Of a stretch of DNA of 57,644 nt, positions 39,160-45,298 are shown piece by piece. Origin of the DNA: SAR202 cluster bacterium bin22 (GTDB lineage: Bacteria > Chloroflexota > Dehalococcoidia > Lucifugimonadales > UBA3495); contig MPMM01000023.1 of assembly GCA_002238505.1 (NCBI GenBank), forward strand, positions 1-57,644, written 5' to 3'. The notes under the pieces are model-generated. The model worked only from the letters and a program-made list of their open reading frames with translations, was not told the origin of the DNA and searched no databases. Made by a program: the position numbers and the translations under genes. How positions within the stretch are numbered: position 1 is the stretch's first letter; every line of letters begins with the position of its first letter.

Positions 39160-39849
39160 TTACCTGGTAAGTTCGGGCCAGAACCTTTCTTCTTTCCAGG
39201 GGTCGGCGTTGTTGTTGTAGCCGCGTTGTTCCCAGAAGCCAGGCGAATCTTCCAGCATCAGTTCCAGGCCGTTAATCCACTTGGCGCTCTTCCAGGCGTA
39301 GCGGCTGGGGACGATGAGGCGAAGGGGCCAGCCGTGGTCCTTGCCCAGTTCGGCGCCGTTGTGGCGGTGGGCCAGGAAGCCTTCCTCCAGCACCATTTCC
39401 AGGGGGAGATTGGTGGTATAGCCGCCAAGGCAGTGGGCCATGACGTATTTTGCCTGGGGCCTTACGCCGGCCATTTCAAGGACGGCAGCGGCTGGTACTC
39501 CCTCCCAGGTCTGGTCGAGGGCGCTCCACTGGGTGACGCAATGGAAATCGGCATCCAGGGTAACCCAGTCCAGTTCGGTGAACTGCTTCCAGCTCAGGGT
39601 TATTTCCTGGTCCACCACGCCGAACACCCGGAAAGTCCAGAGGCTGATGTCCACCTCGGGCCTGGAGCCGTAGGTAAGTACCGGAAAGCGCTTGCTGAGA
39701 AACTGGCCGGGCGGGACGCGTTCACCCTGGTCGGGGGCCTCCTTAACCTGGTCGGGGCGTTTCAATCCGAATTGCGGTTCCAATTTATTCAACCACCTGT
39801 TTATTGACTGGGTTATGCGGGAAGTGCTGGAGGCCATATTAGTTTTCAT
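39160..39849 (-). CDS. Sulfite-oxidase-like molybdopterin-dependent oxidoreductase
   Basis: 229 aa, one oxidoreductase_molyb domain (SUOX/YedY superfamily). The Mo-coordinating cysteine is Cys104 in DADFHCVTQWS. LDQTWEGVPAAAVLEMAGV, VMAHCLGGYTTNLPLE and HGWPLRLIVPSRYAWKSAKW are the family motifs. No Tat signal is seen, so it is probably cytoplasmic, unlike YedY. The start is ambiguous between ATG 39849 and 39837, and neither has a strong ribosome site. The substrate is unknown. The adjacent selD and moeA genes fit a cofactor-supply neighbourhood. Confidence 0.88.
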   Translation of the reverse strand: MKTNMASSTSRITQSINRWLNKLEPQFGLKRPDQVKEAPDQGERVPPGQFLSKRFPVLTYGSRPEVDISLWTFRVFGVVDQEITLSWKQFTELDWVTLDADFHCVTQWSALDQTWEGVPAAAVLEMAGVRPQAKYVMAHCLGGYTTNLPLEMVLEEGFLAHRHNGAELGKDHGWPLRLIVPSRYAWKSAKWINGLELMLEDSPGFWEQRGYNNNADPWKEERFWPELTR

Positions 39850-39994
39850 CCATTGGAGTGTCAAACGGGTGCGTTGCCGCTGGTATGACCGGGGTGATCG
39901 CGCCTTGACGTTCGTTGGTTTCGTTTATCAATTGTAAGCTGAAGCGCGACCGCAGTTACCGGTAGGGGCAGAGGTGGGGAAGCAGGAGGACAAG

Positions 39995-40029
39995 CAACCC
40001 CGCAGCCACCGTGACGGGCTGCGGGGTTG
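39995..40029 (-). terminator. Hairpin after selD
   Basis: Twelve-bp arms AACCCCGCAGCC and GGCTGCGGGGTT with a 9-nt loop sit just after the selD stop. On the minus strand GCTTG follows, with a weak T-run. Confidence 0.55.
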
Positions 40030-40036
40030 TGATGGT

Positions 40037-41083
40037 CTATGGATTGGCGATTATGGTGCCAGCAGGCCCGTCGGTTATGCGGCCGACCACGCAGGCACAG
40101 GGCGTCCCGTGGGCCGTTAACTCCGCCAGGAGTTGCTCTTCCTTGTCTCCCGCGACTGACATCAACAGGCCGCCGGAGGTCTGAGCGTCACACAGGAGCA
40201 ACTGGTCGTTGTCGGTCAGGTCCGGGTGCCAGCGCACAGTGTCGGCCACGCTGTCCCGGTTGCGGCCAGTGCCGCCGGGGGCGATGCCCTGCTCCAGCAG
40301 TTCCCAGGTTCCGGGCAAGGTGGGCACCTGGCCCAGGTTGATTTCGGCGCAGACGCCGCTGCCCTTGACCATGGACTTGAGATGGCCCATAAGGCCAAAG
40401 CCGGTAATGTCGGTGCAGGAGTGGACGCCCACCTTGGTCATAGCCTCGGAGGCTGAACGATTCAGGGTGGCCATGGCGTCAACCGCTCCCTGGAGGACGT
40501 CGGCGTCAACCCGGCCCTGCTTTCCGGCGGTGGTGATTATGCCGGTGCCCAGGGGTTTGCTGAGAATGAGGGAATCGCCGACCCTGGCGCCAGCGTTGGT
40601 GGTCTGCTTGCCCGGCTCCACAATGCCCACGACCGACAGGCCGTACTTGGGTTCGGGGTCGTCCACGGTGTGGCCGCCCACGATGAGACAGTCGGCTTCG
40701 GCGGTCTTGGAGTAGCCTCCCCGCAGGATTTCGCCCAGGATACCCTTGTCCAGGGCTGCCGGAAACCCGCAGATATTGAGGGCGACCAGGGGCTTGCCAC
40801 CCATGGCGTAAACATCGCTGAGGGCGTTGGCAGCGGCGATGGCCCCGAATTCGAAGGGATCATCCGTTATGGGCGGGAAAAAGTCCACCGTCAGGATGAG
40901 GGCCGTCTCGTCGTTGATGCGGAAGACGGCGGCGTCATCGCCGGTTTCGGTGCCTACCAGCAAGTCGGGATGGGAAAGCTGGGGGAACTGGCTCAGGACC
41001 TGTACCAGGTCCTCAAGGCTGATCTTGGCCGCTCAACCGGCGCAGTGGGAAAGCTCGGTCAGGCGGATTTCGCTGCTCTGCAT
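40037..41083 (-). CDS. selD: Selenide, water dikinase SelD, a selenoprotein (in-frame UGA = Sec17)
   Basis: 348 aa counting the UGA as selenocysteine. SelD makes selenophosphate from selenide and ATP for Sec-tRNA and selenouridine synthesis. From ATG 41083 (CAGGAGG upstream) it reads MQSSEIRLTELSHCAG, UGA at 41033-41035, then AAKISLEDLVQVLSQF, continuing into LVGTETGDDAAVFRIND and the usual SelD body (NALSDVYAMGGKPLVALNI, GGHTVDDPEPKYGLSVVGI, HSCTDITGFGLMGHL, CDAQTSGGLLM). The UGA falls exactly where SelD has its catalytic Cys/Sec (HCAG-U-AAK; GCGC in E. coli). A SECIS-like hairpin follows. A naive call would start at TTG 40963 and lose 40 residues. The Sec machinery (selA, selB, selC) is not in the window. 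Confidence 0.95.
40991..41014 (-). promoter_or_regulatory. Candidate bacterial SECIS hairpin in selD
   Basis: On the mRNA, about 19 nt after the UGA, AGGACCT pairs with AGGTCCT around a GGTAC loop (positions approximate). A 7-bp stem with G and U at the start of the apical loop, 20-30 nt after UGA, fits the known bacterial SECIS requirements for SelB binding. Confidence 0.7.
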
Positions 41084-41279
41084 GGGGCCTCCTGTGGGGC
41101 TGGGCAATTCGTGGGGCTACCTAATGGATTGTAGCATAAAGGGGCAGGACGCCCGGAACCAGCCGAAGGGAGGTAAGGATGAGCATCGGGTACACATTTG
41201 GTCCAGCGCGGGGAAGTTCGCGATGCGATGCACGCTGATGGGTCCAACCCTCGCGGCCGAGGCGCGCCAGGCACACCCC

Positions 41280-43235
41280 CTAGCCGATCTCGGCCTGGAC
41301 CTGGCCCATACGGCTGATGTCGTAGCCCCCCAATTCATGCACGGCCTGGCGGAATTCCTCGCTGATCAGCAGAGCGAGCAGAGGCTGCAGCAGGTCGCTC
41401 TCGTAGTGGGTCCTGGGAATAACGAGGTCGTACTGCTCGTTGGCCAGCGGGATGAATTCCAGACCCAGGGCGCGGGCCGCGCTAAGTATGCCGAGACCCA
41501 CGTCGGCGGATCCGCCGCTTACGGTTGCCGCCACCGCCAGGTGGCTGAACTCCTCCCGCAGGTAGCCGTTGACGGCTTCGGGGTCGGCGCCCATTTCCCC
41601 CAGCTTGTAGTCCAGCAGAACCCGGGTGCCGGAGCCGCGCTGCCGATTAACAAAGGTGACGTCGGGGCGCATGAGGTCGGAAAGGGAGTGAATGCCGGAG
41701 GGGTTGCCCGGCCTGACCATCAGGCCCTGGACTCTTCCTACCAGGTTTACCAGAACCACCGGAAACTGGGGCAGGTAGCGCTCGATGTAGGAAAGGTTGT
41801 ACTTCCCGGTGGTCTCATCCAGGAGATGGGAGCCGGCCAGGTGGGCCTCGCCGCGCCGGAGGGCTATCAGACCGCCCAGGGAGCCTATGTGTGAAGAGGA
41901 GAGGTTGGCCCCGAAAGGCGCCCGCCGCAGGAAGCTGGACATCAGGTCCAGGGTAAGGTCGTGGCTGCCGATGGCGACTATGGTGTTTTCAACCTCCGCC
42001 AGGGGCCGCAACAGTTCAACCGCTACTTCGGCGCCAGCTTCCATTCCCTCGGAGAAGCGGGGTATCTTCACCAGGCCGTCGGCGCGGACCAGGGACATTA
42101 TTACCCCCGCGCCCCGCTGAACCGGCGTGGCTACCATTCTCTCGCCGACGCGGCCCAGCTTGACCCGCAGGAATTCATCCTCGCCGGTGGATGACGTGAC
42201 TTTGCGCGTAATTTGGGCGTGGACTATGGGACGCTGGCCGCCCCGGGCCTGGCCCAGCCACCGCGCGATAAGGGGCTGTAGCAGCAACTCGGCGGTGAGC
42301 ATGGTGGATACCGGGTACCCGGGCAGTCCGACGAGAGGCTTGCCGCGGGCCAGCCCCAGCACCACCGGGTGGCCGGGGCGAACGGCAATGCCGTGGACCA
42401 GCAACTCTCCCAGTTCTTCGACCACCAGGGCGGTGTAGTCCTCGGAGCCAGCGGAAGAACCGGCATTGATGATCACCAGGTCGTGGGTCTTCAGGGCCTC
42501 AATGGCGGCGTCCCGAATAGCCACAAAGTCATCGCGGACCGGGTCCACGACCGTAGCGACTGCGCCCCACTCTTCCAGTTGGGCGGACAGCATTATGGAG
42601 TTGAACTCCACGATGTCTCCGGGCTGCAGGTCGGTACCCACGGGCACCAGTTCGTTGCCGGTGGGAATGATGGCCACGGAGGGCCGGCGGCGGACGGACA
42701 GGTGGGCCAGGCCGGCGGCGGCACAGGCGCCCAGGTCTGCGGGAGAAAGCTGGTGGTTTTCGGTAAGCACCAGTTCCGTGGCGATAATGTCCTCGCCCAG
42801 GGGACGTACGTGCTGCCAGGGGGCCACGGGGTCCATTATGCTGACGTGGTTTTCCCCCACCTTGTGCAGGTGCTCGACCATGATTACCGCGTCGAAGCCG
42901 GAGGGCATGGGGTCGCCGGTATCCACCCACACGGCCTGCTGCCCGGGGTCGTTGACCGCCAAAGTAACGGGAGAGGTTTCGGTGGCGCCGGTGGTATCCG
43001 CGGCGCGGACGGCGATTCCGTCCATGGCGGCGGCATCGTAGTGGGGAGATGACTTGGCGGCCCAAACCGGCCCGGATGTTACCCGTCCCCGGGCCGTGGC
43101 CACCGGAACAACTTCGGGAGGCATGGCCTCCAGCAAGCCGGCGTCACGAAGGGCGGTGTAAAACCTGTCCCGCGCTTCTTCCAGCGGGATGTCGGAAAGG
43201 TAGTAGCGTCGCTGGTTTGGCTGGCCCAAGGTCAA
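41280..43235 (-). CDS. MoeA-type molybdopterin molybdotransferase fused to a C-terminal PBP-like domain
   Basis: 651 aa. Residues 1-410 are MoeA, which inserts molybdate into adenylated molybdopterin: PHYDAAAMDGIAVRA, DTGDPMPSGFDAVIMVE, VAIIPTGNELVPVG, INAGSSAGSEDYT, LVGLPGYPVSTM. Residues about 430-645 are a periplasmic-binding-protein/LysR-substrate-like domain (AIGSHDLTLDLMSSFLRR, FVNRQRGSGTRVLLDYKLG, ADVGLGILSAARALGLEFIP), similar to the molybdate-binding-type fusion known in several archaea and bacteria. The start is TTG 43235, overlapping the HAD stop (TTGA), so the genes are coupled. The fused domain could sense or hand over molybdate or tungstate (inference). Confidence 0.9.
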   Translation of the reverse strand: MTLGQPNQRRYYLSDIPLEEARDRFYTALRDAGLLEAMPPEVVPVATARGRVTSGPVWAAKSSPHYDAAAMDGIAVRAADTTGATETSPVTLAVNDPGQQAVWVDTGDPMPSGFDAVIMVEHLHKVGENHVSIMDPVAPWQHVRPLGEDIIATELVLTENHQLSPADLGACAAAGLAHLSVRRRPSVAIIPTGNELVPVGTDLQPGDIVEFNSIMLSAQLEEWGAVATVVDPVRDDFVAIRDAAIEALKTHDLVIINAGSSAGSEDYTALVVEELGELLVHGIAVRPGHPVVLGLARGKPLVGLPGYPVSTMLTAELLLQPLIARWLGQARGGQRPIVHAQITRKVTSSTGEDEFLRVKLGRVGERMVATPVQRGAGVIMSLVRADGLVKIPRFSEGMEAGAEVAVELLRPLAEVENTIVAIGSHDLTLDLMSSFLRRAPFGANLSSSHIGSLGGLIALRRGEAHLAGSHLLDETTGKYNLSYIERYLPQFPVVLVNLVGRVQGLMVRPGNPSGIHSLSDLMRPDVTFVNRQRGSGTRVLLDYKLGEMGADPEAVNGYLREEFSHLAVAATVSGGSADVGLGILSAARALGLEFIPLANEQYDLVIPRTHYESDLLQPLLALLISEEFRQAVHELGGYDISRMGQVQAEIG

Positions 43236-44011
43236 GAGAGTTCACCCCGTTCACTTAGGATGTAGTTGGAGTATGGAACGGATGATGCGGTCTGGCATGG
43301 CGGGTGGGGTGGGAAGGGAGGTTGGGGGTGGGGCTGGGGGTGGTTGTTGGGGGAAACGCCGTCCCCCCGCCAGTCCACCCAGATACCAAATATTCCCACG
43401 GCCTGGGCGCCGCCCACGTCGGCATAGAGGTTGTCGCCCACCATCCAGGCCTCGCTGGGAGACACACGCAGGTTTTCCAGCGTTTGCTGGAAGATGCGGG
43501 GGTCGGGTTTGGCTGCGCCGAATTCGCCGGCGATCAGCACCGATTCAAAACAGGGTTCCAGTCCCGCCTTCACGACCTTGGCGCGCTGGCCCTCGGAGTC
43601 TCCGTTGGTAATCAGGCCCAGCCTGACACCACGGTCGCGGAGGGCCTGCAGGAGGTCCAAGGCGCCGGGGATAACTTCAACGGCGGCCGACTTCAGCTTC
43701 TGGTAGGCGGCCGACATTTCTTCCTTAAGAGGGTCATCGTCCATCCCGAACCGTTCGAAGGCCATGGACAACAGCTCCCAGCGGGCCCGGCTGAGGTTCA
43801 TGCTGCCCTTCCGGATTCGCTCGGGGTCGGACCAGTACCAGCGCCGGATTTCCTGGATTGCGTCGGACAGGTCTTCGGGGTCTGCTACGGGCAAACGGCT
43901 GGCAAAGTCGTGGCAGACCTGGCGAAAGCACCTACCCGCGGCTACGTCGTCGGACAGGATGGTGTCGTCCATATCGAAAATGATGGCCGGTGGCAACTCT
44001 GGATTCTGCAC
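43232..44011 (-). CDS. HAD-superfamily hydrolase
   Basis: 259 aa. The motif I nucleophile is in IIFDMDDTIL (DxDDT), motif II in LGLITNGD, the motif III lysine in AAKPDPRIF and motif IV in MVGDNLYADVGGAQAVG. The cap is helical (C1 type, as in the YjjG/NANP group). It is a phosphatase of unknown substrate. The C-terminal 40 residues are Pro/His-rich low complexity (NNHPQPHPQPPFPPHPP), an odd tail. The gene lies between the two moeA genes and overlaps the fusion moeA start, so it is probably in their operon. The gap to the upstream moeA stop is 39 bp. Confidence 0.9.
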   Translation of the reverse strand: MQNPELPPAIIFDMDDTILSDDVAAGRCFRQVCHDFASRLPVADPEDLSDAIQEIRRWYWSDPERIRKGSMNLSRARWELLSMAFERFGMDDDPLKEEMSAAYQKLKSAAVEVIPGALDLLQALRDRGVRLGLITNGDSEGQRAKVVKAGLEPCFESVLIAGEFGAAKPDPRIFQQTLENLRVSPSEAWMVGDNLYADVGGAQAVGIFGIWVDWRGDGVSPNNHPQPHPQPPFPPHPPCQTASSVPYSNYILSERGELS

Positions 44012-44050
44012 TGCTTACTCTTGCCTGCTCCTGTGGAGTTTCATCATGGA

Positions 44051-45298
44051 TTAAAACAGCGTGACCGTTACGGTCTCGCCGGCATAGAGGCCGGCTTTGT
44101 CCAGCGGAACCTGAACGAGGCCGTCAGCACGGATGAGCGTAAAGATTAGGTTGGACTTGCCGAATACGGGTTCGGCGACCAGTTCTTCAGCGCCGTTGTC
44201 TCCGTTGCGCCTGAGCCGCACTGGAACGTAATCCTCGCGGCCGGAGGCTGAAGCCAGGTCGCGGTCCAGTCGCGCCGCAGTCCTGGCCGGTTCAGGGATC
44301 GCCAGGCATCCGGCCAGTCGGTAAATAACCGGCCGGACCAGCAGGTCGAAGACAATCATGGCGGATACCGGGTTTCCGGGCAGGCCAAAAACGGGCTTGT
44401 CCGCCACCATTCCAAGGATGGCCGGCTTTCCCGGACGGATGGAGAGGCCGTGAACCAGCACGCCGGGCTCGCCCAGGGCGTTGATGATGTCGGCGGTCAT
44501 GTCCCGGCTGCTGACCGAACTGCCCGCGGAAAAAACCAGCGCGTCGGAGTGCTCCAGACCCCGACGCGCCGCTTCCAACTGGGTTTCGTAATTGTCAGAG
44601 ACTATGCCGAGCGGAACGGGTTCGCCACCGTCCCGGAGAATCTGGGAAGCGATGGAATAGCTGTTAACGTCCCGGATCTGGCCAATGGCCGGCTCTCTAT
44701 CCGGTGAAACCACCTCGTCGCCCATGGACAGGACCGCAATCCTGGGGCGACGGGCCACGGGGGCGCTGGTAATGCCCAGGGCAGCAAGCCCGCCGATATC
44801 CTGCGGCCGCAGCAGGCGCCCGCGAGGCAGGATTGATTCTCCCTCCCGAACATCTTCGCCGGGCTGGACCACGTTCTCGCCCGGGGCCACTGGCCGGACC
44901 ACCTCTATGGTGTCGGCGTCAACCTGCTGGGTGTTCTCTACCATTACGACTGCGTCCGCGCCGCCGGCCAGCATGCCGCCGGTATAGGTTCCGGCGGCTT
45001 CTCCCAGGTTTACGGATACCCCGGGGGCTCTACCCATGGGGACTACGCCAACAACGGAAAAGTAGGCCGGCAACCCCTCGGTGGCGCCGAAGGTATCGGC
45101 GGCCCGGAGGGAATAACCGTCAACGGTGGAGCGGGGAAAGGTGGGGAGGTCCTGCCGGGAGACAAGGTCTGTGGCGGTGACTCGGCCGAGGGCTTCGTGT
45201 ACCGGCACATCCTCGCAGGCGGGGGCGGGCGATGGCAATACTTCGAGCAAAGCTGCCAGAGCCTGTTGCGGCGGAAGAACGTTGAAGAATTCCGGCAT
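44051..45298 (-). CDS. moeA: Molybdopterin molybdotransferase MoeA
   Basis: 415 aa, standard length without the extra domain. The motifs are FPRSTVDGYSLRAADTFG, GGMLAGGADAVVMVENT, IAVLSMGDEVV, FSAGSSVSSRDMTADI and PVFGLPGNPVSAMIVFDLL. It acts in the last step of molybdenum cofactor synthesis. It is the first gene of the moeA-HAD-moeA(PBP) set. Two divergent MoeA copies are common when both Mo and W enzymes are made or when one MoeA serves a special cofactor form (family knowledge). Which copy does what is not known here. Confidence 0.93.
   Translation of the reverse strand: MPEFFNVLPPQQALAALLEVLPSPAPACEDVPVHEALGRVTATDLVSRQDLPTFPRSTVDGYSLRAADTFGATEGLPAYFSVVGVVPMGRAPGVSVNLGEAAGTYTGGMLAGGADAVVMVENTQQVDADTIEVVRPVAPGENVVQPGEDVREGESILPRGRLLRPQDIGGLAALGITSAPVARRPRIAVLSMGDEVVSPDREPAIGQIRDVNSYSIASQILRDGGEPVPLGIVSDNYETQLEAARRGLEHSDALVFSAGSSVSSRDMTADIINALGEPGVLVHGLSIRPGKPAILGMVADKPVFGLPGNPVSAMIVFDLLVRPVIYRLAGCLAIPEPARTAARLDRDLASASGREDYVPVRLRRNGDNGAEELVAEPVFGKSNLIFTLIRADGLVQVPLDKAGLYAGETVTVTLF

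Follow-up and report, generated by a model that had tools for sequence, protein, structure and literature searches.

A selD gene with a conserved in-frame UGA and a covarying SECIS-like hairpin in a SAR202-type Chloroflexota lineage with numerous candidate selenoprotein genes

Selenophosphate synthetase (SelD) containing selenocysteine (Sec) is already a well-known selenoprotein family, accounting for 38 of 285 bacterial selenoproteins, and the commonest bacterial selenoprotein is the Sec-containing formate dehydrogenase (PMC1794560). In the GOS marine selenoproteome the dominant families include SelW-like proteins with a CxxU motif, SelD, peroxiredoxins (Prx) with TxxU, Prx-like proteins with UxxC, PrdB with UxxC, AhpD-like proteins with CxxU, and deiodinase-like proteins (PMC2398784). 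The GOS data consist of metagenome reads (PMC2398784), whereas the genome described here, from a SAR202 cluster bacterium, carries candidates for these same families together in a single Chloroflexota genome.

We analyzed a window of 57,644 nucleotides (contig MPMM01000023.1) that includes a selD gene, encoding a predicted selenide water dikinase, on the minus strand at positions 40038 to 41083. This gene resembles known Sec-SelD genes (TIGR00476) in the fold of its product, in the position of the catalytic Sec, and in the presence of a SECIS element just downstream of the UGA codon, such that its occurrence is in itself unsurprising. Unlike most Sec-SelDs, it carries the motif in the CxxU form (HCAGU, within HCAGUAAK), which is seen in about 5.6% of the single-domain Sec-SelDs from the GOS marine data (PMC2398784). 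A further difference is that the second cysteine of E. coli SelD, two residues beyond the catalytic position (GCGCK), is replaced by alanine (GUAAK).

A sequence-only reading of this DNA had noticed that the selD frame is interrupted by a UGA at the presumed active site, a position at which SelD proteins carry either Sec or Cys. Indeed, from the ATG at 41083-41081 the frame reaches TGA at codon 17 (41035-41033, minus strand) and then stays open for 331 codons up to a TAG, yielding 348 amino acids when codon 17 is read as Sec. The translation matches the SelD model TIGR00476 with 391.9 bits over residues 7-314, an equivalog-level match against a curated cut-off of 125, and includes both the AIRS and the AIRS_C domains. 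Its closest solved chain is 3u0o (E 1.3e-76), which we take to be E. coli SelD. In the alignment proposed by that reading, Cys17 and Lys20 of 3u0o fall on U17 and K20, reproducing the catalytic arrangement of Cys or Sec followed by Lys.

One could argue instead that translation truly begins at an internal TTG at 40963, which a mechanical open reading frame finder reported as the start of a 308-residue protein, and that the upstream UGA simply terminates a short frame that has nothing to do with selD. Such a protein would lack the catalytic loop, and residues 1-46 are conserved as protein sequence across the family and also in SelD of the E. coli type. Moreover, reading the sequence directly reveals a ribosome-binding site, AGGAGG, a few nucleotides upstream of the ATG at 41083 (approximately 41088-41093, minus strand). 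We therefore consider an internal start very unlikely, and favor the full-length frame with UGA at codon 17.

Comparison with relatives yields the same picture. Among 50 family genomes, including that of the window, all 47 that cover this part of selD have UGA at codon 17; the remaining three are incomplete genomes (56-78%) that do not include the UGA-containing part of the gene. The TGA-bearing family homologs reach down to 52% identity, and their frames are otherwise full-length and intact in nearly all cases. TGA is thus family-wide, whereas the same codon is TGC or TGT in the Cys-containing homologs of distant organisms (Myxococcus, Phycisphaerae), the pattern used to recognize a bacterial selenoprotein gene. 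Because the source assembly is a draft in 58 contigs, a Cys codon misread as TGA during sequencing or assembly, or a dead selD pseudogene, might have been entertained. Given that the TGA recurs at the same codon in every covering family genome, that nearly all frames are intact, and that the adjacent hairpin is conserved, we regard such an explanation as already refuted by independent genomes and would assign it only a vanishingly small probability.

The hairpin was also noticed in the sequence-only reading, and its geometry is exactly as described there: 7-bp arms AGGACCT and AGGTCCT surround GGTAC, with the stem beginning 19 nt past the UGA. An additional inner G-C pair extends the stem to 8 bp (AGGACCU-G-GUA-C-AGGUCCU; 40995-41013, minus strand), leaving GUA as the apical loop, at a spacing of 27 nt from the UGA. 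Published constraints for bacterial SECIS elements require a loop of 3-9 nt, a G as its first or second nucleotide, a spacing of 16-37 nt, and an energy of at most -7.5 kcal/mol (PMC13188914). When these constraints are applied to the selD hairpin, its spacing of 27, loop GUA, and energy of -11.6 kcal/mol all lie within them. The minimum free energy z-score is only -1.6, which is not exceptional for the base composition, and thus the energy by itself proves nothing.

A Watson-Crick stem of 8 bp or more, in an allowed position and with a loop that opens with G, is found after 5 of the window's 1448 TGAs (0.35%). A strict contiguous-stem test is passed by 5.8% of TGAs. A fold-based SECIS test was dropped, as 60% of random TGAs pass it and it provides no discrimination. 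The encoded peptide, EDLVQVL, itself favors the stem: all eight pairs form in 8% of synonymous recodings, or in 16% when these are weighted by codon usage.

The firm evidence for this putative SECIS element is comparative. In each of the 42 distinct family sequences, seven or more of the eight pairs are retained, with a G at or beside the loop start. Compensatory changes occur within the family at two pairs, from G-C to A-T at positions 24-40 and from C-G to T-A at positions 27-37 (counted from the T of TGA). The observed pairing of the stem across these 42 sequences (0.973) exceeds that of all 1000 permutations of synonymous codons, the maximum of which is 0.967. Sec-containing homologs outside the family are 64% paired in the same exact register, and those lineages may place their SECIS hairpins differently.

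If UGA is decoded as Sec, then the rest of the machinery should be encoded elsewhere in the genome, and the sequence-only reading had proposed a search for selA, selB, and selC. Targeted family searches of the source genome (4.39 Mb, 97% complete) recovered each of them. Specifically, selA scores 541.7 bits (Pfam SelA, 1.1e-134), and selB matches TIGR00475 with 348.3 bits over positions 2-580 of 581 and carries SelB-wing_2 and SelB-wing_3, winged-helix domains of the type that binds SECIS elements. A tRNA-Sec with anticodon TCA scores 67.5 bits, and 43 of 49 family genomes have a tRNA-Sec above the Rfam cut-off, some with scores near that cut-off. Secondary tRNA-Sec matches of at most 49 bits were set aside because all 14 control genomes also produce such matches, with scores at or under the cut-off. 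The selA, selB, selC, and selD genes are thus found together in one genome, as expected for the Sec-decoding trait. The selenouridine synthase YbbB was also sought in this genome and was not found.

These components bear on another explanation, in which UGA throughout the genome has come to specify one of the standard amino acids (Trp, Gly, or Cys) rather than Sec. Many genes of the genome do read through UGA, as such a reassignment would require. However, UGA still terminates other genes, for example selA and the gene at 43232-44011 of the window, and the in-frame UGAs fall at redox-active Cys positions. The five families scanned showed no UGA at non-redox positions. With selA, selB, and tRNA-Sec also present, we judge reassignment to be highly improbable.

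The open frame, the conserved UGA, the covarying hairpin, and the genomic selA, selB, and selC genes can all be read directly from the DNA. From these features we infer both the insertion of Sec and the enzymatic activity of the product. The gene almost certainly encodes a selenophosphate synthetase with Sec at catalytic residue 17, inserted via SelB and the hairpin, and the organism very probably makes Sec, as the sequence-only reading had surmised. We hypothesize that SelB carrying Sec-tRNA-Sec binds the hairpin located 3′ of the UGA during translation, such that Sec is inserted at codon 17 and termination is avoided. The full-length SelD would then produce selenophosphate from ATP and selenide, and SelA would use selenophosphate to convert Ser-tRNA-Sec to Sec-tRNA-Sec. 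The charged tRNA would in turn serve the synthesis of SelD and of some 14 further redox proteins that contain Sec.

The suspicion that additional genes are truncated by misreading of UGA also proved well founded, in that 14 further candidate genes with UGA at a redox-active position were found in the genome, or 15 when selD is counted. For these 14, hairpins were screened only, and the covariation test pertains to selD alone. They fall into peroxiredoxin, SelW-like, deiodinase-like, PrdB/GrdB-like, and AhpD-like classes. One TGA each is present in nine AhpC/TSA-family matches, one CMD match, and two SelW-like genes. The redox contexts comprise TxxU in peroxiredoxins, UPYC, three tandem UxxC, two UINC, CRYU, and CVPU twice. 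The two PrdB/GrdB-like genes carry UPLC and UPRC directly beyond the point where the Pfam GRDB match ends. SelW-like genes are present in 48 of 49 family genomes, with TGA in every one among the matches listed. In the window itself, 17 TGAs lie in a UxxC or CxxU context, and by eye only selD resembles a real protein.

None of the candidates is a formate dehydrogenase. The genome encodes four molybdopterin oxidoreductases of PF00384, none of which has a TGA within the match, and thus the Sec-containing formate dehydrogenase appears to be absent. Our literature search, whose coverage was incomplete, returned no work linking SAR202 with selenoproteins, although texts on SAR202 with an isolated mention of selenocysteine exist; it therefore seems that the abundance of selenoproteins in this lineage has not been described. 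We tentatively propose, while recognizing that the idea could well prove wrong, that this SAR202-type family as a whole is rich in selenoproteins, has not been described as such, lacks Sec-containing formate dehydrogenase, and is a substantial source of the selenoproteins in marine metagenomes. In that case the Sec-containing SelD would be required for the production of every one of these selenoproteins, its own included. Peroxiredoxin, SelW, and PrdB selenoproteins have been seen in ocean reads, and the lineage is a candidate for the organisms that encode them. More generally, a marine Chloroflexota lineage appears to decode UGA as Sec, in which case standard annotation would cut about 15 genes of this genome at their active sites. 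Such truncated gene calls affect any metabolic reconstruction of SAR202.

Several individual loci deserve mention. The deiodinase-like gene, which is one of the nine AhpC/TSA matches (PF00837, 5.6e-31), carries UGA at its redox site, here in a member of the Chloroflexota (G000:C53:465940-466359; L156:857-1639). In both PrdB/GrdB-like genes (L163:162-1358 and L164:306-1295), the GRDB model (PF07355) stops precisely one residue short of the Sec UGA, as though UGA-truncated proteins had been used to construct it. A thioredoxin-like gene with UINC (G000:C16:784022-784345; L154:756-1457) has no SECIS-like hairpin even by a loose test, which makes the decoding of its UGA uncertain. The other UINC gene (G000:C16:535498-535812; L155:855-2411) encodes a 519-residue thioredoxin-like protein fused to NHL repeats, a candidate fusion selenoprotein. 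Three tandem AhpC/TSA-type genes (G000:C53:20800-25000; L153), each with an in-frame UGA in UxxC, are followed by nearly identical hairpins with the loop AGUUG located 16 nt after the UGA, and are candidates for a cluster of paralogous selenoprotein genes.

Finally, the immediate surroundings of selD (39160-45298) include molybdenum genes, all on the minus strand. These encode a sulfite-oxidase-type molybdopterin oxidoreductase (39160-39864; Pfam Oxidored_molyb, 5.4e-40), a MoeA for molybdenum cofactor insertion fused to a PBP-like domain (41280-43235; Pfam MoeA_N, MoCF_biosynth, MoeA_C, and PBP_like), and a second MoeA identified by Pfam (44051-45298).
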